Source: Actinoallomurus soli
Lineage (GTDB): Bacteria; Actinomycetota; Actinomycetes; Streptosporangiales; Streptosporangiaceae
Assembly: GCF_024055715.1 (NCBI RefSeq)
Contig: NZ_JAMXMV010000008.1
Coordinates: 1 to 64,000 of the forward strand
Length of the DNA: 64,000 nucleotides
Direction: 5' to 3'
Position 1 is the first letter of the stretch, and each line of letters begins with the position of its first letter. Positions 1,726 through 30,746 of the stretch are shown here, piece after piece. The notes beneath the pieces are model-generated. The model made no database searches. It saw only the letters and a list, made by a program, of their open reading frames with translations, and was not told the origin of the DNA. The position numbers and the translations under genes are program-made.

Positions 1726-2535
1726 TTAACGATCACGATCGACGCGGTCGACCGGATATCCCGCCGTTCCGGCGGGGGCGTGGCCGGAGAGGCGGCGGGT
1801 GAGTTCGGCGGCGGCCTCACGGACGCGGGCGGCGAGGTCCGGCCACTCCTCCTCGTCGTGGGTCTCGCGGCGGAAGGTCACGGCCATCGCGGCGGCCGGG
1901 CGGCCGACGTGGTCGAAGCTGCACGCGGCGATGCTGGCGAAGCCCTCGGTCACGTGGCCGTCCTCGACGGCCCAGCCGCGCCGCGCGTCCTCGGCGAGCG
2001 CCCGGCGCAGCTCGCGCAGCGACCGCGGCCCGGCGCCGGTCCGGGTCACGAACTCGCCGGGGAACAGCGCGCGGACCTGCGCGGCCGGAAGGTGCGCCAG
2101 CATCGACCGGCCGCTCGCGGTGAGGTACGCCGGGAGCCGTACGCCCACGTCGGTGACGAGCGTGGCATGGTGCCGGGGCTGCTCCTTCAGCAGGTACAGC
2201 GTCTCGGCGCCGTGCAGCACGCCGAGCTGGCCGATCTCCCCGAGCCGGTCGACGAGGCGTACGAGGAGGGGGCGGGCGAGCCGTTCGAGCGGGCCCTGCC
2301 GCAGGTACGCCGAGCCGATCTCGAACGCCGTCACGCCCAGGCCCCACAGCCGGTCCTCCGGGAGGTAGGTGACGAAGCCGTCCTCGGCCATGGCGGTGAG
2401 CAGGTGGTAGGTGCTCGACCTCGGCAGGGACAGCTCGCGGGCGATGGCGGACGCGGCGAGCGGCCGGGCCGAGGACGCCAGCAGGCGGAGGACGGCCAGC
2501 GCGCGCCGCGCCGCGGGCACCTGCTCGGCCGCCAT
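1726..2535 (-). CDS. IclR-family regulator, probable hut repressor
   Basis: A 269-residue IclR-type transcription factor. The N-terminal winged helix-turn-helix is visible around residues 20-65 (core LAASAIARELSLPRSSTYHL) and is followed by an IclR effector-binding domain. The ATG at 2535 is preceded by AGGAGGAGG; an upstream in-frame start lies before this site and was not used. The gene is divergent from hutH across 92 bases. Control of histidine use is inferred from that position and from a 16-base sequence in the divergent promoter (2558-2573) that recurs at 19267-19282 in front of hutI. The effector is unknown; urocanate is the usual inducer in other hut systems. Confidence 0.85.
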   Translation of the reverse strand: MAAEQVPAARRALAVLRLLASSARPLAASAIARELSLPRSSTYHLLTAMAEDGFVTYLPEDRLWGLGVTAFEIGSAYLRQGPLERLARPLLVRLVDRLGEIGQLGVLHGAETLYLLKEQPRHHATLVTDVGVRLPAYLTASGRSMLAHLPAAQVRALFPGEFVTRTGAGPRSLRELRRALAEDARRGWAVEDGHVTEGFASIAACSFDHVGRPAAAMAVTFRRETHDEEEWPDLAARVREAAAELTRRLSGHAPAGTAGYPVDRVDRDR

Positions 2536-4195: not shown

Positions 4196-5878
4196 ATGGG
4201 TCCTCGTCCCGTACGCGCGCCGCGCGGCACGACGCTGAGCGCCAAGGGCTGGCAGCAGGAGGCCGCCCTGCGCATGCTGATGAACAACCTCGATCCGGAG
4301 GTCGCCGAGCACCCCGACGAGCTGATCGTCTACGGCGGGTCCGGGCGGGCGGCGCGCTCGTGGGACGCGTTCGACGCGATGGTCCGCTCGCTGCGCTCCC
4401 TGGAGGCCGACGAGACGCTGCTCGTCCAGTCCGGCAAGCCGGTCGGCGTCATGCGCACCCACGAGTGGGCGCCGCGCGTGCTCATCGCCAACTCCAACCT
4501 CGTCCCGCAGTGGGCGAACTGGGAGGAGTTCCGGCGGCTGGAGGCGCTCGGGCTCACGATGTACGGCCAGATGACGGCCGGGTCGTGGATCTACATCGGC
4601 ACGCAGGGCATCCTGCAGGGCACGTACGAGACGTTCGCGGCCGTCGCCGCCAAGCTCAGCCGGCGGAGCTTCGGCAAAGGGGAGAGCAGCGGCGGCTCCC
4701 TCGCCGGCACGATCACGCTGACCGCCGGGCTCGGCGGCATGGGCGGCGCTCAGCCGCTCGCCGTCACGATGAACGGCGGCGTCGCGATCTGCGTCGAGTG
4801 CGACCCCTCCCGCATCGACCGGCGCGTCGAGCACCGGTACTGCGACGTGCGCGTCGACGACCTCGACGAGGCGCTGCGCCTGGCCGTCGAGGCCCGCGAC
4901 GCCCGCCGCCCGCTGTCCATCGGCCTGCTCGGCAACGCCGCCGACATCGTGCCGAAGCTGCTGGAGATGGGCGCGCCGATCGACATCGTCACGGACCAGA
5001 CCTCGGCGCACGACCCGCTGACGTACCTGCCGCGCGGCGTCGCGTTCGAGGACATGGCCGACGCGCGCGCCAAGGACCCGGAGGGCTTCACCATCCGGGC
5101 CCGCGAGTCGATGGCCGCGCACGTCGAGGCGATGGTCGGCTTCCAGGACGCCGGCGCGGAGGTCTTCGACTACGGCAACTCGATCCGCGGCGAGGCGCAG
5201 CTCGCCGGGTACACGCGCGCGTTCGACTTCCCGGGCTTCGTCCCCGCCTACATCCGGCCGCTGTTCTGCGAGGGCAAGGGCCCGTTCCGCTGGGCGGCGC
5301 TGTCCGGCGACCCGAAGGACATCGCCCGTACGGACCAGGCGATCCTCGACCTGTTCCCGGAGAACGAGCAGCTCGCCCGCTGGATCCGGATGGCGGGGGA
5401 GAAGGTCCACTTCCAGGGCCTGCCCGCGCGGATCTGCTGGCTCGGCTACGGCGAGCGCGACCGCGCCGGCCTGGAGTTCAACAAGCTCGTCGAGACCGGC
5501 GAGATCAGCGCGCCGATCGTCATCGGCCGCGACCACCTCGACTCCGGCAGCGTCGCCTCGCCGTACCGCGAGACCGAGGGCATGGCCGACGGCTCCGACG
5601 CGATCGCCGACTGGCCGCTGCTGAACGCCCTGGTCAACGCCTCCTCCGGCGCCTCCTGGGTGTCGATCCACCACGGCGGCGGTGTCGGCATCGGCCGGTC
5701 CATCCACGCCGGGCAGGTGTCGGTGGCCGACGGCACGCCGCTCGCGGCTCAGAAGCTGGAGCGGGTGCTGACCAACGACCCGGGCATGGGCGTCATCCGG
5801 CACGTCGACGCCGGCTACGACCGCGCCACCGAGGTCGCGGCCGAGCGCGGCGTCCGCGTCCCGATGAACGAGCAGTAG
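4196..5878 (+). CDS. hutU: Urocanate hydratase
   Basis: Urocanase hydrates urocanate to 4-imidazolone-5-propionate with a tightly bound NAD+ as electrophile. The 560-residue product matches the family along its whole length, including the N-terminal block [17 protein letters not shown], the segment [20 protein letters not shown] and the glycine-rich segment [12 protein letters not shown]. An AAGGAGAA ribosome site precedes ATG 4196, 14 bases after hutH, so the two are surely co-transcribed. The product of this step needs HutI, which in this window lies about 13.5 kb downstream and outside the operon. Confidence 0.97.
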
Positions 5879-5942: not shown

Positions 5943-7136
5943 ATGGGCTACGAAGAGATGTGGCGGGACCTGCTGCCGATCGGGCGGGTCTCCGGCGGCG
6001 GCCACCGGCGGTACTCCTGGACGGCCGCGGACCGGGAGTGCCGCGCCTGGTTCGCCGAGGAGGCGGGCCGGCGCGGCCTGACCCTGGAGGAGGACCGCAA
6101 CGGCAACCTCTTCGCCTGGTGGGACGTTCCCGGTGAGCGACGGGACGCCGTGCTGACCGGCAGCCACCTGGACTCCGTGCCGGACGGCGGCGCGTTCGAC
6201 GGGCCGCTCGGCGTCGTGTCGGCCCTCGCCGCGATCGACCTGCTGCGCGAGCGCGGCGTGACCCCGGCCCGGCCGCTCGGCGTCGCCGTCTTCGCCGAGG
6301 AGGAGGGCGCCCGGTTCGGCGTCGCCTGCCTGGGCTCGCGCCTGCTGACCGGCGCCATCGACCCGGTACGGGCCCGGGGCCTGCGGGACGCCGACGGGGT
6401 CACCTGGGCCGACGCGATGGCCGCCGACGGCCGCGACCCGGAGGCGATCGGGCCCGACCCCGACCTGCTCACCGGCATCGGCTGCTTCGTCGAACTCCAC
6501 GTCGAACAGGGCCGGGCCCTGGAGGTGCCCGTCGGGGTGGCGAGCGCGATCTGGCCGCACGGCCGCTGGCGGTTCGACTTCACCGGCCAGGGCAACCACG
6601 CCGGGACCACGCTGCTGCGGGACCGCCGGGACCCGATGCTGCCGTTCGCGCACACGATCCTGGCCGCCCGCGACGCCGCGGCCCGGCACGAGGCGGTCGC
6701 GACGATGGGCAAGGTCCACGTCACCCCGAACGGCGTCAACGCCATTCCGTCCCTCGTCCGGGCCTGGCTCGACACCCGCGCGCCCGACGACGCGGCCGTA
6801 CGCGCGACGGTCGCCGAGATCCGCGCCGCCGCGGAGAAGGTCGCCGGCGAGCACGGTGTCGAGGTCGCGCTCGCCGAGGAGTCCTACACCCAGGTCGTGG
6901 ACTTCCACGCCGGGCTGCGCGACCGGCTCGCCGCGACGCTCGGCGGCGCGCCGGTCCTGCCGACCGGCGCGGGGCACGACGCGGGGATCTTGTCCGCGCA
7001 CGTCCCGACGGCGATGCTGTTCGTGCGCAACCCCACCGGCGTCTCGCACGCCCCCGAGGAACACGCCGAGACCGGCGACTGCCTCGCCGGCGTCGAGGCG
7101 CTCGCCGCCGTCCTGGAGGACCTGCTCACCCGATGA
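5943..7136 (+). CDS. M20 amidohydrolase (allantoate amidohydrolase-like), possible N-formylglutamate deformylase
   Basis: A 397-residue metallo-amidohydrolase of the M20 / AllC-HyuC carbamoylase group. The dinuclear-metal ligands are visible as SHLDSVPDGGAFDGPLG (His and Asp), FAEEEGARFG (Glu pair) and ELHVEQG (His), and the dimer/lid segment GQGNHAGTT is present. Its closest named families hydrolyse allantoate or N-carbamoyl amino acids. It sits inside the hut operon and its stop overlaps the hutF start by ATGA. HutF makes N-formylglutamate, and no canonical HutG deformylase is present in the window. I therefore infer that this enzyme may remove the formyl group. GAGGAGAGG precedes ATG 5943. 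Confidence 0.83.
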   Translation: MGYEEMWRDLLPIGRVSGGGHRRYSWTAADRECRAWFAEEAGRRGLTLEEDRNGNLFAWWDVPGERRDAVLTGSHLDSVPDGGAFDGPLGVVSALAAIDLLRERGVTPARPLGVAVFAEEEGARFGVACLGSRLLTGAIDPVRARGLRDADGVTWADAMAADGRDPEAIGPDPDLLTGIGCFVELHVEQGRALEVPVGVASAIWPHGRWRFDFTGQGNHAGTTLLRDRRDPMLPFAHTILAARDAAARHEAVATMGKVHVTPNGVNAIPSLVRAWLDTRAPDDAAVRATVAEIRAAAEKVAGEHGVEVALAEESYTQVVDFHAGLRDRLAATLGGAPVLPTGAGHDAGILSAHVPTAMLFVRNPTGVSHAPEEHAETGDCLAGVEALAAVLEDLLTR

Positions 7137-8458
7137 AACTGCACGCCGAACACGCCTGGCTCGGTGACCGCGTCGCGGCCGACGTCCTCATCGAGATCGC
7201 GGGGGAGCGGTTCGCCCGGATCACCCCCGGCGTGCCGGCCCCGCCGGACGCCGAACGCCTGCCCGGCCTGACCCTGCCCGGCCTGGCCAACGTGCACTCC
7301 CACGCCTTCCACCGCGCCCTGCGCGGGCGGGTGCAGGCCGGCCGGGGCACGTTCTGGACCTGGCGCACCCACATGTACGAGGTGGCGGCACGGCTCGACC
7401 CGGACTCCTACCTCGCGCTGGCCCGCGCCGTCTACGCCGAGATGGCCCTGGCCGGGATCAGCTGCGTCGGCGAGTTCCACTACGTCCACCACGGCCCGGG
7501 CGGCACCCCGTACGCCGACCCGAACGCCTTCGGCGAGGCGCTTTTGCAGGCCGCGCGCGAGGCCGGCATCCGGATCACGCTGCTCGACGCCTGCTACCTG
7601 ACCGGCGGCATCGGCAAGGACCTGGAGGGGCCGCAGCTGCGGTTCGGCGACGGCACCGCCGACGCCTGGGCCGACCGGGTCTCGGAACTGCGCGCGGACG
7701 GCCATGCCCGGATCGGCGCGGCCATCCACTCCGTACGCGCCGTCCCCGGCGACCAGCTCCGGACCGTCGCCCAGTGGGCCCGGCAGCGCCGCGCCCCGCT
7801 CCACGTCCACCTGTCCGAGCAGCCCGCCGAGAACGAGGCGTGCCTGGAGACGTACGGCATGACGCCGACGCAGCTGCTGGCCGACAAGCGGGCGCTCGGC
7901 GGCCGGACCATCGCCGTCCACGCCACCCACCTGACCGCAGAGGACATCGGCCTGCTCGGCGCCAGCCAGAGCGGCGTGTGCATGTGCCCGACCACCGAAC
8001 GCGATCTCGCCGACGGCATCGGCCCCGCCCGCGACCTGGTCGGCGCCGGATCGCCGCTCTCCCTCGGCTCCGACCAGCACGCGGTGATCGACCTGTTCGA
8101 GGAGGCCCGCGCCGTCGAGCTCGACGAGCGGCTCCGCACCCGCAGGCGCGGCCACTGGACCGCCGGGGAGCTCTTGGCCGCGGCGACCTGCAACGGCCAC
8201 TCGGCGCTCGGCTGGTCCGAGGCGGGCCGCATCGAACCCGGCTCGTACGCCGACCTGGTCACCGTGGACCTGAACTCCGTACGACTCGCCGGCGCCGCCC
8301 CCGACCACCTCGCCGAGTCCGCCGTCTTCGCCGCCTCACCCGCCGACGTCCGCCACGTCGTCGTCTCGGGAAAGCAGATCGTCCGCGACGGTCGCCACCT
8401 GCTGATCGACGACGTCCCCGCCGCCCTCTCCCAGGCGATCACGGCCGTGACCGCCTGA
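7133..8458 (+). CDS. hutF: Formimidoylglutamate deiminase
   Basis: A 441-residue amidohydrolase-superfamily enzyme that deiminates N-formimidoyl-L-glutamate to N-formyl-L-glutamate and ammonia. The metal site is recognisable from NVHSHAFHRALRGR (HxH near the start of the barrel), VHLSEQPAENEA, AVHATHLT and GSDQHAVIDLFEEAR. The ATG overlaps the stop of the preceding M20 gene by four bases, so translation is coupled. The gene is followed within about 12 bases by a tight hairpin that probably ends the operon. In the gene orders I know from other actinomycetes hutI commonly follows here; in this window it does not. Confidence 0.92.
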   Translation: MKLHAEHAWLGDRVAADVLIEIAGERFARITPGVPAPPDAERLPGLTLPGLANVHSHAFHRALRGRVQAGRGTFWTWRTHMYEVAARLDPDSYLALARAVYAEMALAGISCVGEFHYVHHGPGGTPYADPNAFGEALLQAAREAGIRITLLDACYLTGGIGKDLEGPQLRFGDGTADAWADRVSELRADGHARIGAAIHSVRAVPGDQLRTVAQWARQRRAPLHVHLSEQPAENEACLETYGMTPTQLLADKRALGGRTIAVHATHLTAEDIGLLGASQSGVCMCPTTERDLADGIGPARDLVGAGSPLSLGSDQHAVIDLFEEARAVELDERLRTRRRGHWTAGELLAAATCNGHSALGWSEAGRIEPGSYADLVTVDLNSVRLAGAAPDHLAESAVFAASPADVRHVVVSGKQIVRDGRHLLIDDVPAALSQAITAVTA

Positions 8459-8469
8459 CGGATGTCGGG

Positions 8470-8490
8470 GTCCCCGACGGGGTCGGGGAC
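8470..8490 (+). terminator. Hairpin terminator after hutF
   Basis: GTCCCCGAC and GTCGGGGAC form a perfect nine-base-pair stem around a GGG loop just after the hutF stop. There is no clear T-tract, as is usual in such GC-rich genomes. It marks the probable end of the hut operon and the left border of the biosynthetic block. Confidence 0.6.
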
Positions 8491-8649
8491 GCGCTCGGCT
8501 GCTCGGGTAATTCCTTCCCCATTGAGCCGTTCGCTCTCGCCCAAATCTCATGCGGGGTGTCACCGGCAGGGTTTTCCGGGGAACCGCCCGGGCAGGTACA
8601 GACTTCGATCGCATGATATGGACGACACTCCATTGTCACGAACGGTCCT

Positions 8650-10125
8650 ATGGGCATGCATGCGAAGTCGGCTTTCCGGAAGAAGCCGCGATCGCCCGTT
8701 CGCGTACTCGGCGGGGCGGTGACGTTGTCCGTGCTCGGCCTGACGGTGATCGATGCCGGATCGTCGCATGCCGTGTCGCGGGATTCCGGCGCCGCGCGCC
8801 GGTCTCTTCCATCCGCGCCCGGGCTTCATATTCTGCGGGACCGGCCGGGGACGGCGCCGTGGATGATATTGATAACTCCGCAGAGTCTGCCCCCGGGGCC
8901 GCGGGACGGTAACGAGATCCTCGACGGACAGGGACGGCCGGTCTGGTTCAGGCGGGTCCCGGCCCGGCATTTCATGACCGACCTGCGCGTTCAACGCTAT
9001 CGGGGGCGGCCGGTGCTGACCTGGTTGCAGGGCACGCTCAAGGGCGATCCCACTGTTTTCGATTATCACGGCACCGGATACATCGCCGATGCGCATTATC
9101 ACGTCATCGCCAGGCTCGGGCATCTCGCCGATCCGCACGAATTGCAGATCACTCCGAGGAACACCGCCCTGCTCATCGACGCCGGGCGTCGGCGAATGGA
9201 CCTGTCACCGGTCGGCGGCGCCCGGAACGACACCGTCCGCGACGGGATCCTCAAGGAGGTCGACGTCAGGACCGGCCGGACCCTGTGGCGCTGGAGCGGC
9301 GTGGACCACATACCGATCACCGAGTACTACCGTCACAGGATCAAGCCGCGAGAGCCCCGTCCTTTCGACTACCTGCACCTCAATTCGGTCGAGGAGGGCC
9401 GCGACGGCAACCTGCTCGTCTCGGCCATGAGCACGTGCACCCTCTATGAAGTCGACCGGCGGACCGGACGCATCATCTGGCGGCTGGGCGGGCGTGACAG
9501 CACGTTCCGGCTCGGACCCGGCGTGCGGTTCTGCGGGCAGCACGACGCGCACTGGGCCGGTGAGAACCTGATCAGAGTCTTCGACAACGGAACCCTCCGG
9601 AAGCGGCACGCGGCGCGCGTCGCCTGGATCGAACTCGATCCCGTGGCCAGGACGGCCACGCTCGTCAGGCAGATCGTGCAGCCCCAGCACAGGTCCGTCG
9701 CCATCCAGGGCAACGCTCAGGAACTGCCGAACGGCGACACCGCGGTGGGCTGGGGCTCGGAGGGCCGGATCTCGGAGTTCGCCCCTGACGGGAGGAGCCT
9801 GTTCGATGCCGCGCTCCCCAGAGGCATGATCACCTACCGGATGTACCGGATGCCGTGGAACGGCCGGCCGAACACACCACCGACCGTGATGACGCGGGGC
9901 GGCACCGTGCACGCGGTCTGGAACGGCGCGACGGGCGTCGCTCGCTGGCGCGTCCTCGCCGGTCCGACGCCGAAGGCCGTGAAACCGGTCGCGGAGGCGG
10001 CGTGGAACGGCCTGGACACGGCCATCGCGCTGCCCGGCGCCTCGGCCTCGGCGCCGTACCTCCAGGTCCAGGCGCTGGACGCCCGCGGCAGGGTGCTCGG
10101 CATCGGCATTCGTGGCAGGCGGTGA
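8650..10125 (+). CDS. Secreted arylsulfotransferase (ASST)-like protein
   Basis: A 491-residue protein of the arylsulfotransferase (ASST) beta-propeller type. Family-like blocks are GNEILDGQGRPVWFRR, HEL, FDYLHLNSVEEG, GRIIWRLGGRDS, CGQHDAHW and FDNG. The N-terminus has basic residues, then a hydrophobic stretch around residues 19-35 and a small-residue region, so it is probably exported. Well-studied ASST enzymes move sulfate between phenols; the actinomycete members are poorly known. The first part of the gene uses many A/T-ending codons, unlike the hut genes, which suggests transfer. Its stop overlaps the polyketide synthase start by TGATG. The ATG at 8650 lacks a convincing ribosome site, and ATG 8656 is an alternative. 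Confidence 0.72.
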   Translation: MGMHAKSAFRKKPRSPVRVLGGAVTLSVLGLTVIDAGSSHAVSRDSGAARRSLPSAPGLHILRDRPGTAPWMILITPQSLPPGPRDGNEILDGQGRPVWFRRVPARHFMTDLRVQRYRGRPVLTWLQGTLKGDPTVFDYHGTGYIADAHYHVIARLGHLADPHELQITPRNTALLIDAGRRRMDLSPVGGARNDTVRDGILKEVDVRTGRTLWRWSGVDHIPITEYYRHRIKPREPRPFDYLHLNSVEEGRDGNLLVSAMSTCTLYEVDRRTGRIIWRLGGRDSTFRLGPGVRFCGQHDAHWAGENLIRVFDNGTLRKRHAARVAWIELDPVARTATLVRQIVQPQHRSVAIQGNAQELPNGDTAVGWGSEGRISEFAPDGRSLFDAALPRGMITYRMYRMPWNGRPNTPPTVMTRGGTVHAVWNGATGVARWRVLAGPTPKAVKPVAEAAWNGLDTAIALPGASASAPYLQVQALDARGRVLGIGIRGRR

Positions 10126-11165
10126 TGTCCCCCGCGCGGATCACCCGGATCGCGTTCACCTCCCCTCCTTTGATCAGCATGAAGGAGTTCGCCGAGTTCT
10201 TCGCCGACGACGCCGGCGGCCAGAACGTCGTGGACATGGTCCGCAACGCGGCGATAGAGACCAAGGGGATGGCGGTCAACCCGCTCGCCGACGACCCGCG
10301 CGGCTGGGGAACCGCGCGTCGCATGCAGGTCAGCCTGGCGATGGCCCGGAGCCTCGGGCTGGAGGCGGTTCGCCGGGCGCTGGCCGATGACGGCCTGCGG
10401 CCCGACGACGTCGGTCTCCTGGTCACGGCCACCACCACGACCCACTCCACCCCGGGCCTGGACGCGCTGATCACCCAGGTGGGGATGCGGCCTGACACCG
10501 AGTTCCAGTCGCTCGGCCCGATGGGCTGCTACGCCGCGCTCCCCGCGCTGGCCACGGTCCGGAACTGGGTCGAGATCCACGGCCGCCCGGCGGTGCTCGT
10601 CTGTACCGACCTCTTCTCGCCGTACCTGCCGCCGCCGCCGTACGACAAAGAGCAGGCCGTAGTGCTCACGATCTTCGGGGACGGCGCCGCCGCGGTCGTG
10701 GTGCGCCCGGGAAGGGAGCACGTCAGGGGACTGGACATCCTCGACACCGAGACGTTCTACGCACCCGAGTTCGCCGACGACCTGCAGATTCACGTCGGCG
10801 ATGGTGGTATGCGCGTTCGTCTCGCCCCGACCATGCCCGACGTCACCGCGGCGGCCGTCGCCGGTCCGACCGACCGCCTGCTCGGCCGGTTCGGCCTCTC
10901 CCGCGCGGACGTACGGTGGTGGGCGCTCCACCCCGGAGGACGCCGGATCATCGATCGGGTGGCCGAGGAACTGGCACTGCCGGCGGCCTCGGTGGACGCC
11001 TCACGCGCGGTGATGCGGGAGTACGGCAACACCGCCGCACCGGCCGTCATCGGTGTACTCGGGCACCTCCAGGATTCCCGCCCGCTCGCACCCGGAGACC
11101 ACGGCGTCGCGCTGGCGTTCGGGCCGGGCGCCACCATCTGGGCCGTCCTCCTCCGCGGCGCCTGA
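10125..11165 (+). CDS. Type III polyketide synthase (chalcone/stilbene synthase-like)
   Basis: A 346-residue thiolase-fold condensing enzyme. The catalytic triad of type III polyketide synthases is visible: Cys135 in SLGPMGCYAALPA, His269 in WALHPGGRRIID and Asn302 in REYGNTAAPAV. The spacing and the His/Asn contexts fit chalcone/stilbene synthases better than FabH, which was the alternative considered. Such enzymes extend an acyl-CoA with malonyl-CoA and cyclise the chain to pyrones, resorcinols or other phenols. The ATG overlaps the stop of the ASST-like gene (TGATG), so the two are translationally coupled. This favours a shared pathway, for example a phenolic product that is later sulfated; that link is inference. 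Confidence 0.82.
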   Translation: MSPARITRIAFTSPPLISMKEFAEFFADDAGGQNVVDMVRNAAIETKGMAVNPLADDPRGWGTARRMQVSLAMARSLGLEAVRRALADDGLRPDDVGLLVTATTTTHSTPGLDALITQVGMRPDTEFQSLGPMGCYAALPALATVRNWVEIHGRPAVLVCTDLFSPYLPPPPYDKEQAVVLTIFGDGAAAVVVRPGREHVRGLDILDTETFYAPEFADDLQIHVGDGGMRVRLAPTMPDVTAAAVAGPTDRLLGRFGLSRADVRWWALHPGGRRIIDRVAEELALPAASVDASRAVMREYGNTAAPAVIGVLGHLQDSRPLAPGDHGVALAFGPGATIWAVLLRGA

Positions 11166-11202
11166 GACGCACGACCGGACTCTCCTGGGGGAAGGAGTCG
11201 CC

Positions 11203-11859
11203 ATGCTGGAGGTCATCGGCGCCGGCTTCGGCCGTACCGGCACGCTCTCCTTGAAGATGGCGCTGGAACGGCTCGGTTTCGCTCCCTGCCACCACATGCT
11301 CAAGCTGCTCGATAAGCCGGATGAGGTCCGGCTGTGGCGGATGGCGGCCCGTGGCGAGGCCGTGGACTGGGACGAGGTGTATCGCGGATACCGCGCGACC
11401 GTGGACTGGCCGGGCGCACGGTTCTGGCGCGAGCTGGCGGAGCGTTATCCGGCGGCGAAGGTCATCCTCACCATCCGTGACCCGGAATGCTGGTACGAAA
11501 GCGTCCTCGGCACCATTCACCGCGCCGCGATGGACGACTCGCCTCCCGACTCACCCATTCTGGCCGAGATGCGCGTCATGGTCCGTGAGGTCGTATGGGA
11601 CGGGGTGTTCGAGGGGCGTTTCACGGACCGCGAGCACTCATTGCGGATCTTCGACGACCATATCGAGGCCGTACGCGGGCGACTGCCCGGCGACCGGCTG
11701 CTGATCTTCGAAGTGGCTCAGGGCTGGGAGCCGCTCTGCGAATTCCTCGGCAGGCCGGTGCCGGACGCGCCGTTTCCCCACCGCAACCGCCGGGAGGACT
11801 TCGACTCCCTGATGCGAGAGCACGGCGGGACCGGCGCGGACGCGCCCGGTTCGGGTTAG
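11203..11859 (+). CDS. P-loop sulfotransferase-family protein
   Basis: A 218-residue protein with the N-terminal P-loop GAGFGRTGTLSLKMAL that binds the 5'-phosphosulfate end of PAPS in sulfotransferases, and the later block VILTIRDPECWYESV that resembles the 3'-phosphate site. The C-terminal part has LIFEVAQGWEPLCEFLG and PFPHRNRRED, typical of the short family often annotated as sulfotransferase (Sulfotransfer_4). GGAAGGAG precedes ATG 11203, 37 bases after the polyketide synthase. Together with the ASST-like gene it gives this small operon two unrelated sulfotransferase folds. Its substrate is unknown. The 3' end overlaps the convergent next gene by four bases. Confidence 0.75.
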   Translation: MLEVIGAGFGRTGTLSLKMALERLGFAPCHHMLKLLDKPDEVRLWRMAARGEAVDWDEVYRGYRATVDWPGARFWRELAERYPAAKVILTIRDPECWYESVLGTIHRAAMDDSPPDSPILAEMRVMVREVVWDGVFEGRFTDREHSLRIFDDHIEAVRGRLPGDRLLIFEVAQGWEPLCEFLGRPVPDAPFPHRNRREDFDSLMREHGGTGADAPGSG

Positions 11860-12344
11860 ACCGGCCGCCTGGTCGCGTTCCCGTCGGCGCGATCGGCGGA
11901 TCGGCGGAGTACGTGACGGAGCTCGTCGGTGTGCTGCCGGGCGAGTTCGGGCCGGCCCCGGTAACGCACCTGGATGTTGTGGAACAACGCGATCCGCCAG
12001 ATCCCCGACTGCTGCTGGGCGACCAGCGACTGGACGGTGTTGGCGGCCGGATCCAGCACGGTCCGTCCTGGCGGGATCATGCCGGCGATGGCGCGCAGCA
12101 GGACCACCTCATCGCTCAGCGGCCGGACCTCATGCACCTTGAACACGTACGACGGAAGGGCGTCGTCCACGAAGATCGGGGTCAGGTGCTCCACGATCCG
12201 GGGGCCGGGAACGTGGCCGCCGTCGTATTCGATCAGCGCGCCGTCGGGGGCGAACAGCGCCGCGTACCCCTGGGCATCGCGTCGGTTCCACGCGGCGAGC
12301 AGGTCCTCGTACAGCGCTCGCACGGCGGCTTCGGGAGGCTTCAC
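11856..12344 (-). CDS. SgcJ/EcaC-like (DUF4440, NTF2-fold) protein
   Basis: A 162-residue protein with the cone-like NTF2 fold pattern: an N-terminal helix pair (AVRALYEDLLAAWNRRDAQG), then YAALFAPDGALIEYDG, and a C-terminal sheet with WRIALFHNIQVRYRGRP. This is the SgcJ/EcaC type often found next to polyketide genes, where some members act as cyclases or accessory proteins; many have no known role. It starts with GTG at 12344 and lies on the opposite strand to its neighbours, overlapping the sulfotransferase tail by four bases. The 204 bases between its start and the PPOX gene must hold the divergent promoters; I see no clear operator there. Confidence 0.7.
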   Translation of the reverse strand: MKPPEAAVRALYEDLLAAWNRRDAQGYAALFAPDGALIEYDGGHVPGPRIVEHLTPIFVDDALPSYVFKVHEVRPLSDEVVLLRAIAGMIPPGRTVLDPAANTVQSLVAQQQSGIWRIALFHNIQVRYRGRPELARQHTDELRHVLRRSADRADGNATRRPV

Positions 12345-12548
12345 CTGGTCAGTGGTCTCCGCTTCGTCGGAACGTGAAACTCCACCCGGTCAATCATTCC
12401 GTAATGGCGGGTCATCCTTTGGAAAAGCACGGTAATCACCTGACTCGGGCGCTGCCTTTCCATGCGGTGATGGGTTTCAGTGGCGGGTTGGCGGGCATTT
12501 TGTCCCGAGAAGACGCATCTCGACAGCTTTTTTGGGTGGAGGGCGTAG

Positions 12549-13010
12549 ATGAACCTCACCATGTCAAGCGATTGTCGGGAGAGGTTCCTCGCGGACCTGC
12601 ACGTGGGCGTGCTCGGGGTGACCGATCCGCGAGGAACGTCCGCCCCTCTGCTCGTGCCGGTCTGGTACGGCTATGAGCCCGGCGGCGTGGTCACCGTCCT
12701 GACGGCCCGGAGCTCGACCAAGGCCGAATTGATCAGGCGGGCCCGGCGGTTCAGCCTCTGCGCGCAGAGCGAGTCCCCTCCTTACCGCTATGTCAGCGTC
12801 GAGGGGCCTGTCGTCGCCGTGGAGGACGGCTTGAACAGGGCCGAGTGGGAGGCGATCGCCCACCGCTACCTCGACCGGGACACCGCCGTCGCCTATCTCG
12901 CGGCGAACCGACACCAACTCGAGGAGTACATGACCTTTCGGATGCGTCCCCAGCGGTGGAGGACGGCCGACTTCACCGCCTTCGCGCGGCAGTTTCAGCC
13001 GACCGAGTAA
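12549..13010 (+). CDS. PPOX-class flavin-dependent protein
   Basis: A 153-residue split-barrel protein of the pyridoxamine-5'-phosphate-oxidase-like superfamily (FMN or F420 binders). The visible pattern is FLADLHVGVLGVTDPRGTSAPLLVPVWYGYEPGG in two steps, then a strand with TARSSTKAELIRRARRFSLC and the segment YRYVSVEGPVVAVEDG, in the order expected for this fold. GGAGGG lies about five bases before ATG 12549. It is the first gene of the PPOX-NRPS-P450-ABC run, 44 bases ahead of the NRPS, so it is likely to be a tailoring or protective redox protein of that pathway. The cofactor cannot be decided from sequence alone. Confidence 0.75.
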   Translation: MNLTMSSDCRERFLADLHVGVLGVTDPRGTSAPLLVPVWYGYEPGGVVTVLTARSSTKAELIRRARRFSLCAQSESPPYRYVSVEGPVVAVEDGLNRAEWEAIAHRYLDRDTAVAYLAANRHQLEEYMTFRMRPQRWRTADFTAFARQFQPTE

Positions 13011-13054
13011 TCGGTGGTCGCGCGTCGTGTCAATCATCGGTAAAGGAGTTCGGC

Positions 13055-16000
13055 ATGTCGGTTCAGCGCTGCCGGGCCGATTCCGCGCTGACAGAGTGGA
13101 ACGACACCGCGACCGACTATCCGCGGAACAGTTGCCTGCACGGGTTGTTCGACGCGCGGGCGGTCGAAGAGGCCGACGTGGTGGCCGCGGTGCACGCAGG
13201 GCGCCGGCTGACCTTCGGCGAGCTGCGGGACCGCTCCGACGCCTTGGCCGCGCGCCTGCGTGACGCGGGCGTACGGCAGGGGGACCGGGTGGCGGTCTGC
13301 GGGGGGCGCTCGCTGGACGCTCTGGTCGCCGTCCTGGGGGTGTTGAAGACCGGCGCCGCCTACGTCCCGCTCGATGACACGATGCCACCCGCGCGGCTGC
13401 GCGCCCTGGCCGAGGACGCGGGGGTGCAGACGGCGGTGGTCCTGCCGGGCGCGACGTGCCGGGTGCGCCGGCTGCGCGCCCGGGTCGACCTGTCCGACGA
13501 CGCGGTCCCCGCGCCGGTCGACGGGCAACCGCCCGTGGAGTCGGCGCCGCTCGACTGCGCCTACGTGATGGCCACCTCGGGCTCGTCCGGCCGGTCCAAG
13601 GCGGTGGGGGTCCCGCACCGCGGCGTGGTCCGGCTCGCCTACGCCGACGTCGCGGGGTCACGGCCGGGCCCCGGCGACCGGGTGCTCCACGCCTACGAGC
13701 TGTCCTCCGACGCGTCCACGATCGAGATCTGGTCGGCCCTGCTCAACGGGGCCTGCCTCGTGCTGGTCGGCCGGGAGGACCTGCTGTCCCCCGCCGCGCT
13801 TCACCGGCGGCTGCGCTCTGAGCGGGTGACCGTGGCGTACCTGACCACGGGCGTGCTGCACAACGTGGCGCGGACCATGCCCGAGGCGCTGCGGTGCCTG
13901 CGGTTCGTCTCGGCGGGAGGCGAGGCGATGGACCCGGCCCTGGCCCATGCGGTCCAGGCGGCCTGTCCGGACACGACCCTGGTCAACTTCTACGGGCCGA
14001 CCGAGAACAGCGTCGTGTCCACCGCCCACGTGGTCCGCGACCTGCCGCCCGGAGCCGACGACGTGCCCATCGGCCGCCCGCTGGCCAACTCCACCTGCCA
14101 CGTGGTGCGGCCGGACGGCACTCCGGCCGAGGTCGGCGAGCAGGGTGAACTCCTCGTCGGGGGAGACGGGCTGGCGCTGGGCTACCTCGGCGACCCGGAG
14201 CTGACGGCCGAGCGTTTCATCGACGATCTCCGCACACCGGGCACGCGTCTGTACCGCACGGGCGACCGGGTGTCCTGGCTCCCCGACGGCGCGCTTCGCT
14301 ATCACGGCCGGATGGACCGGCAGGTCAAGCTGCGCGGTCACCGCATCGAACTGGAGGAGGTGGAGACCAGGCTGCGGGCGCACCGTACCGTCGGCGAGGC
14401 CGTCGCCGAGGTGGTCCGCGACGCCGCGGACACCGAGCACCTGATCGGCTACGTCACACCGGCCGGCCCCGGGGGAACGGTGTCGCCGGCGCAACTGCGC
14501 CGATACCTGGCCGACTGGCTGCCGGCCCCGGCCCTGCCGTCTCGGCTGGTCGTCCTGCAACGCCTTCCCCTCACCTCCGCCGGCAAGATCGACAGAGGGC
14601 GCCTGGCGGCGGAGGCGGCCGAGGACATCAGGGCCGGGCCGGGATCCGCGCCGTGCGCCGTGACCGGCCCGGCCGACGTCCTCGCCGAGATCTGGCAGCA
14701 CACGCTGCGTGTCCGTCCCACGCCCGTCGACGATTTCTTCGCCCTCGGCGGTGACTCCCTGCTGGCCGCCGAGGTCGTCGCCCGCACCCTGGCCGCACTC
14801 GGCATGGACGCCCGGCATGGCAGCGAACTGATCCGCCGGCTGCTGGGGAGGCCGACCCTCGCCGGCTACGCCGAGGCGGTCGACGAGGTTCGCCGCACCG
14901 ACGCGCCGGCCCCCGGGACGATGGACTTCGAAGCCGAGGCGGTCCTGGGTTTCGACCTCCCGCCGCGGCAGGGCCCCGCGCCACGCTGGGCCGAACCCCG
15001 GCACACCCTGGTCACCGGGGCCACCGGCTTCGTCGGCGCCTTCCTGGTCGACCGGCTGCTGCGGTCGACCTCGGCCACGGTGCACTGCCCGATCCGAGCA
15101 CGTGACGCGCGACGCGCGAGGCAACGGCTGGCGGCCAACCTCGCCCGCTTCGGCCTCGCCCCACCAGGGGTGACCGAACGGGTGGCGTGCTTCCCCGCGG
15201 ATCTCGCCGCGCCCCGGCTCGGACTGTCCGCCGAGCACGCGGCCGAGCTCTCCGGAGCCCTGGACCTGGTGTTCCACGCCGGCGCCGAGGTCAACTTCCT
15301 GTACCCCTACGCGCAACTGCGCGCGGCGAACGTGGACGGGACGCGGTCGGTGATCAGGCTGGCGGCTCCCCGCCGGGTCCCGGTGCACTTCCTGTCCACC
15401 ATCGCGGTGATCGCCGGCTTCGGGACGGCCGGGGTGGAGCGCGTCGACGAGGACCTGCCCCTCGCGCACGCGGACCGGCTGACGATGGGGTACGCCGAGA
15501 GCAAGTGGGTCGCCGAGCGCGTGCTCCGGCAGGCCGCCGCCCTGGGGCTCCCGGTGGCCGTGTACCGGCCCTACGAGATCACCGGTGACCGGCACAACGG
15601 GGCGTGCAACACCGAGACCGCGATCTGCTCGCTGTTCAAGACCATCGCCGAGACCGGCCTCGCGCCGGACGTGCCACTGCCGATGGACTTCGTCCCCGTC
15701 GACTACCTGGCCGACGCCGTCGTGCACCTCGCGACCAGCCGTCCCGCCGCCTGGCGGGTCTATCACCTGACCAACCCCCGGCCCGCCCGGCTGGCGGACA
15801 TGCTCGACCGCATGCGCGCGGCCGGCTGCGACATCACCACGCTGCCCTATCCGCGATGGGTGGCCGAACTGGTGCGGCACATCGCCGAGCACCCGACCAG
15901 CCCGACCGCCCCCTTCCTGTCGCTGTGCGTCGACCGCAGCAACAAGACCGACATCTCGGTCAAGGAGATGTACTTCGAGGGCACCTTCCCGTCGCTGGGA

Positions 16001-16165
16001 CGTGACAACGTCGACCGTGATCTCGCCGGCAGCGGCCTGCACTGTCCGCCGGTCGACCGGGCGCTGCTCGACCGGTACCTCGCGTACTTCCTCTCGACCG
16101 GATACATCCCGCGTCTGCGGCAGGGCGGGGGCGACCGCCTGGCGGCCGGAAGGGGGACGAGATGA
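13055..16165 (+). CDS. Single-module NRPS: adenylation, carrier, thioester-reductase
   Basis: A 1036-residue A-PCP-R enzyme without condensation domain. The A domain covers about 1-530, with ATP loop YVMATSGSSGRSKAVGVPHR from residue 170, NFYGPTENS, YRTGDRVSWLPDG, RMDRQVKLRGHRIE and the catalytic-lysine block LPLTSAGKIDRGRL. The carrier protein follows, with phosphopantetheine Ser568 in LGGDSLLAAE. The R domain runs from about 650, with Rossmann motif TGATGF at 654-659 and the SDR pair Tyr813/Lys817 in YAESKWVAERV. It should activate one amino acid, keeping the usual Asp in SSDAST, and release it as aldehyde or alcohol with NAD(P)H. By eye the specificity pocket reads D-A-I-Y-V-A-F-V-V; I cannot match it to a known substrate. 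AAAGGAG precedes the ATG; the stop overlaps the P450 start (ATGA). Confidence 0.9.
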   Translation: MSVQRCRADSALTEWNDTATDYPRNSCLHGLFDARAVEEADVVAAVHAGRRLTFGELRDRSDALAARLRDAGVRQGDRVAVCGGRSLDALVAVLGVLKTGAAYVPLDDTMPPARLRALAEDAGVQTAVVLPGATCRVRRLRARVDLSDDAVPAPVDGQPPVESAPLDCAYVMATSGSSGRSKAVGVPHRGVVRLAYADVAGSRPGPGDRVLHAYELSSDASTIEIWSALLNGACLVLVGREDLLSPAALHRRLRSERVTVAYLTTGVLHNVARTMPEALRCLRFVSAGGEAMDPALAHAVQAACPDTTLVNFYGPTENSVVSTAHVVRDLPPGADDVPIGRPLANSTCHVVRPDGTPAEVGEQGELLVGGDGLALGYLGDPELTAERFIDDLRTPGTRLYRTGDRVSWLPDGALRYHGRMDRQVKLRGHRIELEEVETRLRAHRTVGEAVAEVVRDAADTEHLIGYVTPAGPGGTVSPAQLRRYLADWLPAPALPSRLVVLQRLPLTSAGKIDRGRLAAEAAEDIRAGPGSAPCAVTGPADVLAEIWQHTLRVRPTPVDDFFALGGDSLLAAEVVARTLAALGMDARHGSELIRRLLGRPTLAGYAEAVDEVRRTDAPAPGTMDFEAEAVLGFDLPPRQGPAPRWAEPRHTLVTGATGFVGAFLVDRLLRSTSATVHCPIRARDARRARQRLAANLARFGLAPPGVTERVACFPADLAAPRLGLSAEHAAELSGALDLVFHAGAEVNFLYPYAQLRAANVDGTRSVIRLAAPRRVPVHFLSTIAVIAGFGTAGVERVDEDLPLAHADRLTMGYAESKWVAERVLRQAAALGLPVAVYRPYEITGDRHNGACNTETAICSLFKTIAETGLAPDVPLPMDFVPVDYLADAVVHLATSRPAAWRVYHLTNPRPARLADMLDRMRAAGCDITTLPYPRWVAELVRHIAEHPTSPTAPFLSLCVDRSNKTDISVKEMYFEGTFPSLGRDNVDRDLAGSGLHCPPVDRALLDRYLAYFLSTGYIPRLRQGGGDRLAAGRGTR

Positions 16166-17412
16166 CCGCGAGGGGAACACCGTCCGACCACGCGTCGCCG
16201 GCCGGGAGGACGGCGGACCGGGAACGGCCGCCGGTCATGGACTTCCCGCTCGGACCGCCGGGGACGATGGGGCCGATCGAGGAGTACGGACGGCTGCGGC
16301 GGGAATGCCCGGTCGCGAGGGTCCGCACGCCGATGGGCGCCACCGCCTGGTACGTCACTCGTTACGCCGACGTCAGGGCACTGCTCGCGGACGCCCGGCT
16401 GGTCAGGCCGACCATCAACGCCTGGCCCGTCCGCCCTGAGGACCTCCCGGAGCCGGGTCCCGGCCTGACGACCATGATGGAGCTGGACGGCCCCCGGCAC
16501 GCCGCGTTGCGCAGGGCGCTGGCCGACGAGTTCGCGGTCCACACCGTGGAGGGTCGTCTGGGACGTGTCCGGGCGCTGGCCGAGGGGCTGCTCGACGACA
16601 TCGAGACCGGTGGCCGGCCGGCCGACCTCGCCGCCGACTTCGCCGAACCGTTCCCGCTGCTGGTGATGTGCGACCTGGTGGGCATTCCCTACGAGGACAG
16701 GGACTACTTCCTGCCCATGGCCGACGTCGCACTCGGCGCGCTGGTGACCCTCGACGAAGGACGCGAGGTCACGCACGCGCTGCGCGGCTACATCGCCGAG
16801 CTGATCGCACGGAAACGGCGCCGGCCCGGGGATGACGTGCTCACCCGGCTGGTGCGCCGATGCGACCAGGGCGAACTCGACCGGGAGGAGGTGATCTGTT
16901 TCGGCCTGTCCATGCTCATGGCCGGCTACCGGACCTGCACCATGTTCCTGGCCGACGCGATCCTCGTCCTGCTGACGCGGCCCGGCCGGTTCGCCCGTCT
17001 CCGCGACGACCGCGGGATGATGCCGCGGGCGGTGGAGGAACTCCTGCGCTACCTGCCGGTGATGAACGGCGTCGTCGTCCTGCAGGCGACCCGGGACATC
17101 GACCTGCACGGACGCGCGATCCACGCCGGTGAGGCCGTGCTGCCGGTGCTCGCCGCCGCCAACCGGGACGGCTCCGTCTTCCCCGACGCCGATCGACTCG
17201 ACCTGCGGCGGGATCCCAACCCGCACCTCACCTTCGGCCAGGGCGCTCACTACTGCATCGGCGTGCACCTGGCCCGCGCCGAACTCGCGGTGGCGCTCGA
17301 CTCCCTCCTCGACCGCTTCCCGGGCCTGCGCCTGGCCGTCGACGAGAGCGAACTGCCGTGGGAGGACGAGTCACCGGCCAAGTCACCGCTGGCCATACCG
17401 GTCGAATGGTGA
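16162..17412 (+). CDS. Cytochrome P450 with an atypical I-helix
   Basis: A 416-residue bacterial class I P450. The heme loop FGQGAHYCIG holds the ligand Cys365, and EELLRYLP supplies the ExxR motif. In the I-helix the oxygen-activation motif AGx(E/D)T reads A254-G-Y-R257-T-C-T, so the usual acid is Arg. This may alter proton delivery or indicate a substrate-assisted or unusual reaction. The gene overlaps the NRPS stop (ATGA), which argues that it acts on the NRPS product or carrier-bound intermediate. No ferredoxin or reductase gene lies nearby. An N-terminal extension of about 25 residues has no match I recognise. Confidence 0.9.
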   Translation: MTARGTPSDHASPAGRTADRERPPVMDFPLGPPGTMGPIEEYGRLRRECPVARVRTPMGATAWYVTRYADVRALLADARLVRPTINAWPVRPEDLPEPGPGLTTMMELDGPRHAALRRALADEFAVHTVEGRLGRVRALAEGLLDDIETGGRPADLAADFAEPFPLLVMCDLVGIPYEDRDYFLPMADVALGALVTLDEGREVTHALRGYIAELIARKRRRPGDDVLTRLVRRCDQGELDREEVICFGLSMLMAGYRTCTMFLADAILVLLTRPGRFARLRDDRGMMPRAVEELLRYLPVMNGVVVLQATRDIDLHGRAIHAGEAVLPVLAAANRDGSVFPDADRLDLRRDPNPHLTFGQGAHYCIGVHLARAELAVALDSLLDRFPGLRLAVDESELPWEDESPAKSPLAIPVEW

Positions 17413-17417
17413 GGTCG

Positions 17418-19196
17418 ATGAGCGGGCTCGACGGGTCGAGCGGATCACTGCGCGTTCTCTGGCGCTACGTGCATGACATGCGGCGGTTCCTCGCCGTGAT
17501 GATGGTGCTCGAACTGGTGGGGAACGCGGCCGCGCTGTCCCAGCCCTTGATCGCACGCTGGGTCCTGGACGAACTGAAGGCCGGCGGCAGCCTGTCCCGG
17601 CCGCTGATGGTCCTCGGCGGGCTCGCCGTCATCGGGATGACGTTGTCGGGCGCCTGCACGTTGTTCCTCGGCCGGGGCGCCCTGCGGCTCGTGACGAATC
17701 TGCGGTGCGCCCTGGTGCGGCGCGTGCTGGGCGGCAGCGTGGCCACGGTCGAGCGCAGGCCGGTCGGCGACGTCCTCTCCCGCATCGGCACCGACACCAC
17801 TCTGCTGGGGGACACGGTCGGCGACGCCCTCGTACGCTCCGCCGCCACCCCGGTGGTCGTGCTGGCGGCGCTCGTGCTGATGGGCACCATCGACGTGCTC
17901 ATGCTCGGGGTGGTCGTCGGGGTACTCGTGATCACCGCTCTGGGAGAGATGATCGCGGGACAGCGGATCAGAGAGGCCACCGAACGCACCCAGGGACGCG
18001 TCGCCGCGATGACCTCGTCGATGCAGCGGGCGCTGATCGCATTCCGTACCGTCAAGGCGTCGGGCACCGAACAGGCGGAGTCGGACCACGCCTGCGCCGA
18101 GGCCGAGGCCGCCTTCCGGGCCGGAAGGCGGGCGGTGCGCGTCGAGGCGTTCCTCGGGATGCTCACCGCGGTCTCGGTCGACGTGACCTTCCTGGCGGTG
18201 CTCGCCGTCGGCGGCGCGCGGGTCGCGTCCGGCGGTATCGGCGTCGGCGACCTGGTCGCGTTCCTGCTCTACGTGATGTTCCTCGGGGAGCCGATCGATT
18301 CGCTGGCCTTCACCATCCCCCAGATCGCCCAGGGCCTGGCGGCCGTCCGGCGGATCGAGGCACTGCGTTCCCTGCCCGCGGAGGCGGAGGAACTGCCCTC
18401 CAGGGGCCGCGGCAGCGGGCGGGTCACCCGGACCGGTTCGAACGGCGGACCGGCTCCCGAGGTGCGGTTCGACGGGGTGTGGTTCGGCTACGACGACCGG
18501 CCCGTGCTCCGCGATGTGAGCTTCGCGGCACGCCGCGGCCTCACCGTGCTCGTCGGACCGTCCGGCGCGGGCAAGACGACCCTGCTCGGCCTCATCCTGC
18601 GATTCGCCGACGTGGACCGGGGCCGGGTCCTGCTCGACGCGGTCGACGTGCGGGAACTGGAACGTGACAAGCTGCGGCGGCGGCTCGCCTACGTGCAGCA
18701 GGAGGCCGCGCTGCTCGGCGAGACCGTGCGGGAGGCGATGCTGTACGGCGTGCCGAGTCCGAGCTCGGCCGACGTGCGAGGCGCGCTCCGCGCCGTGGCC
18801 CTGGACGACTGGGCGGGCTCCCTGCCGAAGGGCCTGGACACGCCGGTGGGGGAACGCGGGGTGGCGATCTCCGGGGGGCAGCGGCAACGGCTGGCGGTCG
18901 CCCGGGCGCTGCTGCGCGGCGCGGACGTGCTGCTGCTGGACGAGGCCACCTCTCAGCTGGACGCGGTCAGCGAGCGCACGCTCCTGGAGTCGTTGGCGCG
19001 AGAGGCGCAGAGCCGGGTGGTCCTGGCCGCCACCCATCGGGTGTCGGTCGCCGCCAAGGCGGATCAGATCGTGCTGCTCATCGAGGGCGGCGTACGAGCC
19101 GTCGGACGGCATGCGGCGCTGCTGAGATCCGATCCCGTCTACCGTGAGCTGGCCTCCGCTCCGTCGTGGGCGTCGGAGGCCGGAACCGAGCCATAG
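17418..19196 (+). CDS. ABC exporter (fused permease and ATPase)
   Basis: A 592-residue half-transporter. Six hydrophobic helices fall between about residues 20 and 300, followed by an ATPase domain with Walker [12 protein letters not shown], a Q-loop in [12 protein letters not shown], signature [15 protein letters not shown] and Walker [13 protein letters not shown]. It is probably a homodimeric exporter for the product of the preceding NRPS/P450 genes. I placed the start at ATG 17418, six bases after the P450 stop, using GGTGAGG as the ribosome site; ATG 17406 overlaps the P450 gene and is less likely. The hut operator and hutI follow, so this is the right border of the inserted block. Confidence 0.85.
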
Positions 19197-19266
19197 ATCC
19201 GCGCGGGCGTCCGCCGCGCGAGCGAGACGGCGGGCGGTGCGCGCGGTGACTGCGGGCGGCCCGGCC

Positions 19267-19282
19267 GTCTCGTATCTCAGAC
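19267..19282. promoter_or_regulatory. Putative hut operator 2 (hutI)
   Basis: GTCTCGTATCTCAGAC lies 68 bases before the hutI start. It differs at one position from the site at 2558-2573 between iclR and hutH. It probably keeps hutI under the same regulator although the gene is detached from the operon. Confidence 0.62.
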
Positions 19283-19350
19283 GGTGTCCGCCTCCCGCCA
19301 CCGGGGGTCTCTCGGTGGGGGTGCCATGCTGGCGGGAGAGGGAGGCGGGC

Positions 19351-20493
19351 GTGAGCATTCTGATCACGAACATCGGAGAGCTGGTCGGGGCCGACGCGGA
19401 GCGGTGGGTGATCGAGGACGCCGCGCTGGTCATCGACGGTGACCGGATCGGCTGGGCCGGCCCGGTGGCCGCCGCGCCGGCCGCGGACGAGGTCGTCGAC
19501 GCCGGCGGGCGGGCGGTGCTGCCCGGGTTCGTCGACTCCCACGCCCATCTGGTGTTCGCGGGGGAGCGGGCGGAGGAGTTCGCCGCGCGGATGAGCGGCC
19601 GGCCGTACGCCGCCGGCGGCATCCGCACGACGGTCGCGAAGACCCGGGCCGCCTCCGACGACGAGCTGCGGGCCGGCGTACGGCGGCTGGTGGCGGAGAT
19701 GGTCCGGCAGGGGACCACCACGATCGAGTGCAAGTCGGGGTACGGGCTGACCGTCGCCGACGAGGAGCGCGCGGTGCGCATCGCCGCCGAGCTGGTCGAC
19801 GAGGTCACCTACCTGGGCGCGCACGTCGTCCCGAACGGGACGGACGCCGCCGACTACGTCCGGCTGGTCGCCGGGGAGATGCTCGAGGCGTGCGCGCCGT
19901 ACGCGCGGTGGATCGACGTGTTCTGCGAACGAGGGGCGTTCGACGCCGACCAGACCCGGGAGATCCTGGCGGCGGGCAGGGCCGCCGGGCTGATCCCGCG
20001 CCTGCACGCCAACCAGCTCGGCCACGGTCCGGGCGTCCGGCTCGCGGTGGAGTACGACGCCGCGTCGGCCGACCACTGCACGTTCCTGTCGGACGAGGAC
20101 GTGGCCGCGCTGGCGGACTCGGAGACGGTCGCGACCCTGCTGCCCGGCGTGGAGTTCTCCACTCGCCAGCCGTACCCCGACGCCCGCCGTCTCATCGACG
20201 CCGGCGCGAAGGTCGCGCTGGCGACCGACTGCAATCCGGGGTCCTGCTACACCTCGAGCATGGCGTTCTGCGTGGCCCTCGCGGTGCGGGAGATGCGCAT
20301 GACGCCGGAGGAGGCGGTACGGGCGGCCACCGAAGGCGGCGCGCGAGCCCTGCGACGGACCGATGTGGGGCACCTGCGGCCCGGTGCGCGGGCCGATGTA
20401 CTCCTGCTCGACGCTCCCTCGCACATCCATCTGGCCTACCGGCCGGGAGTGCCGCAGGTCGCGCGGGTATGGCGGTCCGGACTACCCGCCTGA
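19351..20493 (+). CDS. hutI: Imidazolonepropionase
   Basis: A 380-residue amidohydrolase that opens 4-imidazolone-5-propionate to N-formimidoyl-L-glutamate, the step between HutU and HutF. Metal ligands are visible in [13 protein letters not shown] (HxH), and the segments [21 protein letters not shown] and ATDCNPGS are typical of HutI. I placed the start at GTG 19351, preceded by GGGAGG; the longer frame upstream runs through the operator and has no ribosome site. The gene is needed for the pathway encoded at 2628-8458 but stands alone behind its own operator, with eight unrelated genes in between. Confidence 0.96.
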
Positions 20494-30592: not shown

Positions 30593-30649
30593 GGGCCCAA
30601 CCCTATGCCGCGTACGGGAGGGCCGGGACGAGTCCCGGTGCGCAGCCGC

Positions 30650-30739: not shown

Positions 30740-30746
30740 GTACGGA

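Follow-up and report, generated by a model that had tools for sequence, protein, structure and literature searches.

The window analyzed here is a 64,000-nucleotide stretch (contig C59) of the 9.42-Mb genome of Actinoallomurus soli (genome G000), in which eight genes separate the histidine-utilization (hut) genes hutF and hutI. The eight genes fill the interval from the end of hutF at position 8458 to the start of hutI at position 19351. We consider it probable that they form a natural-product cassette, about 10.8 kb long and equipped with an upstream region of its own, that this cassette is ancestral, and that it was relocated as a block. Its present position is a turnover slot bounded by the stop codon of hutF and the operator of hutI; Actinoallomurus spadix and two other Actinoallomurus genomes leave this slot empty, and four have different genes there.

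An earlier note, made from the sequence of the window alone, had proposed that the eight genes were inserted between hutF and hutI, and had described the two genes as adjacent in other actinomycetes. Eight Actinoallomurus genomes were searched for hutI, and the hut loci were read in the seven besides the window. The junction was filled with 4.6-10.9 kb in five of the eight genomes and empty in three. In the empty sites, hutF and hutI are adjacent, and the distances from the hutF stop to the operator are 11 bp (A. spadix, genome G007), 22 bp (G005) and 96 bp (G004). The hutI of A. spadix is 96% identical to that of the window. The gaps in the other filled genomes are 10,232 bp (G003), 8,725 bp (G002), 5,194 bp (G001) and 4,645 bp (G006). 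The hut loci of these four genomes lack all eight genes of the cassette, save for ABC-domain similarity in neighbouring genes. The earlier note had regarded such a separation in relatives lacking these genes as evidence against its own history; this was found in part, namely in these four genomes. Among 130 genomes of the family with hutF and hutI on one contig (13 more were not comparable), the gap was shorter than 300 bp in 108, in agreement with this adjacency.

In the closest relative sampled, A. spadix, all eight genes are present at C44:222061-232741, with order and directions kept, and the proteins are 73-94% identical to those of the window. This locus possesses no hut genes; it is flanked by genes for an MFS transporter and for a conserved protein of 314 residues. 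Thus, the whole set is also found at a site apart from hut genes, as the earlier note had suggested should be looked for. The similarity between the two copies spans from about position 8485, in the upstream region, to about position 19271 on the right, and both edges are intergenic. The left edge with the upstream region (8485-8649, plus strand) is partly similar to the region upstream of the A. spadix cassette by local alignment. In the window genome, the same two flanking genes are located on contig C11, and 28.8 kb of other genes lie between them (C11:1238392-1267170; L101, L102). Since other genes occupy this place, the A. spadix cassette site is variable too. Many genes of the 28.8-kb block look secreted and carbohydrate-related by eye.

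The divergence at fourfold-degenerate sites between the window genome and A. spadix was 0.184 for the cassette (1956 sites, eight genes) and 0.170 for 29 open reading frames (ORFs) of the window (7080 sites). Since the divergence of the cassette is like that of its neighbours, it was probably present in the common ancestor and later changed place. A type III polyketide synthase (PKS; at least 60% identical) and a non-ribosomal peptide synthetase (NRPS; at least 59% identical) of the cassette types were found together only in these two among 345 genomes of the order, and the cassette is missing from the other six Actinoallomurus genomes.

From these results, we propose that the cassette was present in the common ancestor of the window species and A. 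spadix, and that it would have moved as one block in one lineage, in either direction. The mechanism would probably have been recombination that required no dedicated mobile element. In the Pfam scan, no integrase or transposase family was found among the eight cassette proteins, and no direct or inverted word of at least 9 bp is shared between 8441-8660 and 19181-19300. A reading with edge repeats or element ends was rejected on the latter ground. Natural-product clusters are known to move. To our knowledge, the act of movement is seldom caught. Here, one intact cassette at two places in close species, together with a clean empty site, allows the breakpoints to be read directly.

The other filled slots show that the cargo is exchanged. 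A BTAD-type regulator (about 1030 residues; 71-74% identical among the three genomes) and an FAD monooxygenase (81-83%) are common to the slots of G001, G002 and G006, and in G002 extra genes flank this pair on both sides. In the G003 slot, ten other ORFs were scanned, including YhcG-type nuclease, NmrA, TetR and AraC proteins. The annotated insert proteins include no integrase or transposase. About 165 bp of the G003 slot (L033, about 9651-9877) match the start of the monooxygenase gene and its upstream region (blastn restricted to these sequences: 78%, E about 1e-28). The alignment score is 144, whereas no empty site and neither edge of the window cassette scored above 28. The regulator start next to this remnant scored 28, not above the controls (27-29), and elsewhere in G003 no monooxygenase relative better than 40% was found. 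Thus, the slot once held the monooxygenase module in the G003 lineage and was then partly emptied, and the junction both gains and loses genes. By our count, at least four sets were gained separately: the window cassette, the regulator with the monooxygenase, the G003 genes, and the extra G002 genes. Between G001 and G006, the DNA identity is 92.5% for the gene preceding hutF, which encodes an M20-type amidohydrolase, and 82.5% for hutF, only a hint of recombination in the flank.

Turnover at this junction was compared with that at 24 other junctions over the 64 kb in six genomes (G004 and G005 were left out). A gap more than 2 kb over the smallest was found in 5 of 6 cells at hutF-hutI and in 12 of 129 pair-by-genome cells at the other junctions, a small sample of related genomes. 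Four other junctions vary, each in two or three genomes; thus, hutF-hutI is the most variable junction, not the sole variable one. Two features of an integration hotspot were found here: conserved flanks around cargo that is unrelated or partly related across genomes, and turnover above that of other junctions. In a tree of HutH, HutU, HutF and HutI, the window genome grouped with A. spadix (98) and then with G003 (100), and the empty G005 was placed within the G001/G002/G006 group with weak support (85, 73). A large rearrangement was also observed near hut: the matching neighbours of window region 28883-32531 are about 35 kb apart in G002 and about 17 kb apart in G006.

The right border of the slot is the second of two copies of a palindromic operator, GTCTC-N6-GAGAC. 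Copy 1, GTCTCGCATCTCAGAC, is located at 2558-2573 in the interval between hutH and a divergent IclR-family gene, and copy 2, GTCTCGTATCTCAGAC, at 19267-19282 upstream of hutI. With up to one mismatch, these are the only matches in the window genome, whereas control matches numbered zero. The claim that hutI lies behind its own operator was thereby confirmed. The palindrome is present upstream of hutH in all 16 genomes scored (15 and G003; score 10-11 of 11), and upstream of hutI in all eight Actinoallomurus genomes (score 9-11 of 11), at filled and empty sites alike. Outside the genus, 31 genomes representing 22 genera were scored upstream of hutI, and none has it there; the best score was 8 or less. 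These 31 include G071 and G057; G008, with only 28 bases upstream, was left out. When 2000 stretches of 160 bp were drawn at random from the window, 16 reached a score of at least 9. Since 19 of the 31 genomes were scored over longer stretches (441-501 bases), absence there is the stricter result. Thus, control of hutI by this operator is characteristic of the genus. Presumably the IclR protein is the hut regulator, and we infer that it binds this operator.

The slot may tolerate insertions because hutI is a unit under its own operator. A further step, which we offer tentatively and hold to be somewhat doubtful, is that an operator copy at the last gene of a catabolic operon created a long-lived docking slot, in which cassettes were docked, removed and moved between slots of sister species without mobile elements, while the host pathway stayed coupled. 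If it is true that the operator copy made the junction safe, a testable rule follows for where genomes take up clusters.

Several observations weigh against the reading of an ancestral cassette relocated through an operator-bounded slot, and some of them lend weight to an alternative that is quite possible though short of probable: insertions would be common anywhere, the slot would be passive and the operator non-causal, and the junction would look special only through the conservation of the hut genes and selection against insertions elsewhere in the operon. Gaps above 2 kb also arose in 9 of 125 family genomes outside Actinoallomurus (hutI is on the opposite strand in three of the nine), and all nine, eight scored and G071, lack the operator at hutI. 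Further junctions of the window vary, e.g., 47401-50214/53137 in three of five genomes. The hutI operator itself arose in one clade and counts as a single evolutionary event. Moreover, the empty sites may be secondary, given that the slot was filled earlier in the clade. In view of the G003 remnant, the operator copy may be no older than the first insertion, and we do not claim that it is older than every insertion. The frequencies speak against a merely passive slot (5 of 8 genomes versus 9 of 125, and 5 of 6 cells versus 12 of 129), although these counts are phylogenetically non-independent. In one of the nine exceptions, G071 (genus g65; L169 7774-18190), 10.4 kb between hutF and hutI encode a RamC/LANC-like synthetase (RamC_N, kinase and LANC_like domains), an ABC protein and a radical SAM protein. 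Judged by these domains, the insert is a lanthipeptide-type gene set, and its presence, although hutI has no operator copy there, is a hint of wider use of the junction beyond Actinoallomurus.

The protein identities also count against a single ancestral cassette. The median was 86% for the cassette and 94% for its neighbours, and this difference would allow the two species to have drawn on one donor pool in two separate events. The different cassette loci of the two species agree with such independent gains. We nevertheless regard acquisition by both species, at two places, from related donors as rather unlikely, since the fourfold divergence of the cassette coincides with that of the genome, and since it requires two gains of a combination confined to these two of the 345 genomes.

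The history given in the earlier note, in which the eight genes entered the hut operon directly by a fresh horizontal transfer from a source outside the genus, is less probable still. The absence of the cassette from the other six Actinoallomurus genomes, the relatives of cassette parts in other genera, and the G+C content of the insert (71.1% versus 74.3% for the hut genes) are in its favour. On the other hand, A. spadix has the same block with a fourfold divergence equal to that of the neighbours. The codon use at the start of the first cassette gene, which had been taken as a sign of transfer, proved to be a weak signal: the GC3 of its first 300 nucleotides is 0.78, and an equal or lower value occurs in 3.8% of 131 segments taken from 35 further ORFs of the window. 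Thus, insertion into the junction stands, given the adjacency in A. spadix, G005, G004 and 108 of 130 family genomes, and so does the retention of an operator by hutI, whereas a single fresh transfer is not supported in view of the divergence and the G003 remnant. Finally, it is very unlikely that the placement serves to co-regulate histidine breakdown with product formation, because, although seven of the eight genes run in the hut direction and read-through from hutF is possible, the only operators of the genome are the two hut sites, the A. spadix cassette is without hut genes, and the other slot cargo is functionally unrelated.

The left end of the insert carries a hairpin with a perfect 9-bp stem, GTCCCCGAC-GGG-GTCGGGGAC, at 8470-8490 (plus strand), and a terminator role for it is putative. 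The hut operon had been said to end there. The hairpin is present, but no terminator-like site was found at it, the 61-nt fold around it gave a z of -1.66, and the hutF-hutI gap of A. spadix does not contain such a hairpin. The hairpin is thus not established as the ancestral end of the operon, and we regard its role as the ancestral hut terminator as unsupported.

The identities of the hut genes given in the earlier note were each supported by NCBIfam scores over the cut-off. On the plus strand, hutH (histidine ammonia-lyase, 2628-4181; TIGR01225, 667.5 bits), hutU (urocanate hydratase, 4196-5878; TIGR01228, 915.8 bits), the M20-type amidohydrolase gene (5943-7136; allantoate amidohydrolase model NF006770, 652.9 bits) and hutF (formimidoylglutamate deiminase, 7133-8458; TIGR02022, 514.7 bits), the left border of the slot, are followed, beyond the cassette, by hutI (imidazolonepropionase, 19351-20493; TIGR01224, 371.6 bits). 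The IclR-family gene (1726-2535, minus strand) is divergent from hutH, and its position beside hutH is conserved in the relatives read. Its NCBIfam IclR-family matches do not reach curated cut-offs; the best is BhcR (130 bits versus a cut-off of 350). In G001 (L035 14777-16776), the distance from hutH to the IclR gene is about 2 kb versus about 60-105 bp in those other genomes of the genus for which it was measured, and the operator remains on the hutH side. The position of the M20 gene is kept in all eight Actinoallomurus genomes and in most relatives read, and its score is far over the cut-off of the allantoate amidohydrolase model. The M20 protein may be a candidate for the missing last step, formylglutamate deformylation.

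The Pfam scan agreed with the description of the eight cassette genes as including two sulfotransferase types, a type III PKS, an A-PCP-reductase NRPS, a cytochrome P450 and an exporter. All are on the plus strand except the fourth. The first (8650-10125) encodes an arylsulfate sulfotransferase (ASST; PF14269 Arylsulfotran_2). Its best solved relatives are PDB 9kf4/9kf6 (sulfotransferase; E 6e-81), its N-terminus is hydrophobic and signal-peptide-like by eye, and H163, H220, H243 and H298 are unchanged across 14 sequences. The second (10125-11165) encodes a type III PKS of the chalcone/stilbene-synthase type, in which C135, H269 and N302 are unchanged across 15 homologues. Its nearest NCBIfam model is DpgA, but it falls below the cut-off of the dihydroxyphenylacetyl-CoA synthase model NF042429 (148.9 versus 425 bits). 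The third (11203-11859) encodes a sulfotransferase of the type dependent on 3'-phosphoadenosine 5'-phosphosulfate (PAPS; Sulfotransfer_4, PF17784), with a GxGRTGTxS stretch unchanged across 17 sequences. Its best solved relatives are PDB 9kf1/9kf2 (sulfotransferase family protein; 9kf1, E 3e-66) and SgdX2 (8y9p, E 4e-53). From the adjacent codes, we guess that 9kf1/9kf2 and 9kf4/9kf6 form one enzyme pair. The remaining genes encode a DUF4440/SnoaL-like protein (SnoaL_2; 11856-12344, minus strand; PF14534, over its cut-off), a pyridoxamine-phosphate-oxidase-like protein (PNPOx; 12549-13010; PF12900, PF01243), the NRPS (13055-16165; PF00501 AMP-binding, PF00550 PP-binding, PF07993 NAD_binding_4; TIGR01733, TIGR01746), the P450 (16162-17412; PF00067) and an ABC exporter with fused membrane and ATPase domains (17418-19196; PF00664, PF00005).

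The cassette joins two modules. The PKS scan found matches in 33 of the 345 order genomes, with 44 loci in named genomes. A sulfotransferase was found in all 16 loci with a PKS at least 60% identical, and an ASST in 15 of them, the exception being a 3,984-base contig; the ASST-PKS-sulfotransferase order of the window is kept in nine. Neither sulfotransferase nor ASST was found in any of the other 28 PKS loci, some of which are on short contigs. The 16 loci span Actinoallomurus, Actinomadura and Streptomyces, and most other surrounding genes differ. NRPS relatives (59-66% identical) occur at eight loci in seven other genomes; PNPOx adjoins in five and P450 is found in six, neither PKS nor ASST is found in any, and one has a sulfotransferase (44%). 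Since the trio and the PNPOx-NRPS-P450 group occur apart elsewhere, two modules were joined in the cassette. Locus L213 (G079), which has NRPS-PNPOx-P450 and a 44% sulfotransferase without PKS or ASST, is perhaps a one-step version. In six Actinomadura loci (L121-L124, L129, L137), the trio has among its conserved neighbours a gene resembling ammonia-lyases (36-39% to HutH), and there it presumably serves a different pathway.

All enzymes of a two-step sulfation, namely a type III PKS, a PAPS-type sulfotransferase and an ASST, are thus found in one locus. Given the conserved Cys-His-Asn of the PKS, the four ASST histidines and the PAPS-site stretch, the three enzymes look active. In the proposed pathway, the PKS would make a small phenol or pyrone, the PAPS-type enzyme would sulfate it, and the ASST would pass the sulfate to the NRPS product. 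The NRPS may release an amino aldehyde or alcohol, which the P450 would oxidise; a hydroxyl on this product is the likely sulfate acceptor, and the ABC protein would export the sulfated product. The sulfation module with a single-module NRPS points to a sulfated product class worth looking for.

In the literature searched, among the matches listed, no report of hutF-hutI insertions in actinomycetes was found; most subscription papers are outside its coverage. The slot resembles the integration hotspots between core genes without mobile-element genes of Oliveira et al. (2017; PMC5635113) in its conserved flanks, variable cargo, and inserts without integrase or transposase. It differs from those hotspots in its setting: the surrounding regulon is catabolic and co-regulated, with an operon on one side of the slot and, downstream, a gene under an operator of its own on the other. 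For the sulfation enzymes, the nearest counterpart is caprazamycin, in whose biosynthesis, according to published reports (PMC4257720, PMC6731281, PMC4924298), a PAPS-dependent enzyme sulfates the product of a PKS, which then becomes the sulfate donor for the ASST. The same three classes occur together there as Cpz6 (type III PKS), Cpz8 (PAPS-dependent sulfotransferase) and Cpz4 (ASST), and in the window the corresponding genes adjoin and run in one direction. By this analogy, we infer that the trio works as a caprazamycin-like sulfation relay. The acceptor part differs, being an A-PCP-reductase NRPS with a P450 in the cassette and a liponucleoside pathway in caprazamycin. In addition, the cassette PKS is nearest to the DpgA model, and the likeness to the Cpz enzymes is drawn at the level of enzyme classes. 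The hotspot, the mobile cassette and the two-step sulfation are each known in kind; what is new is their combination and the operator-capped position.

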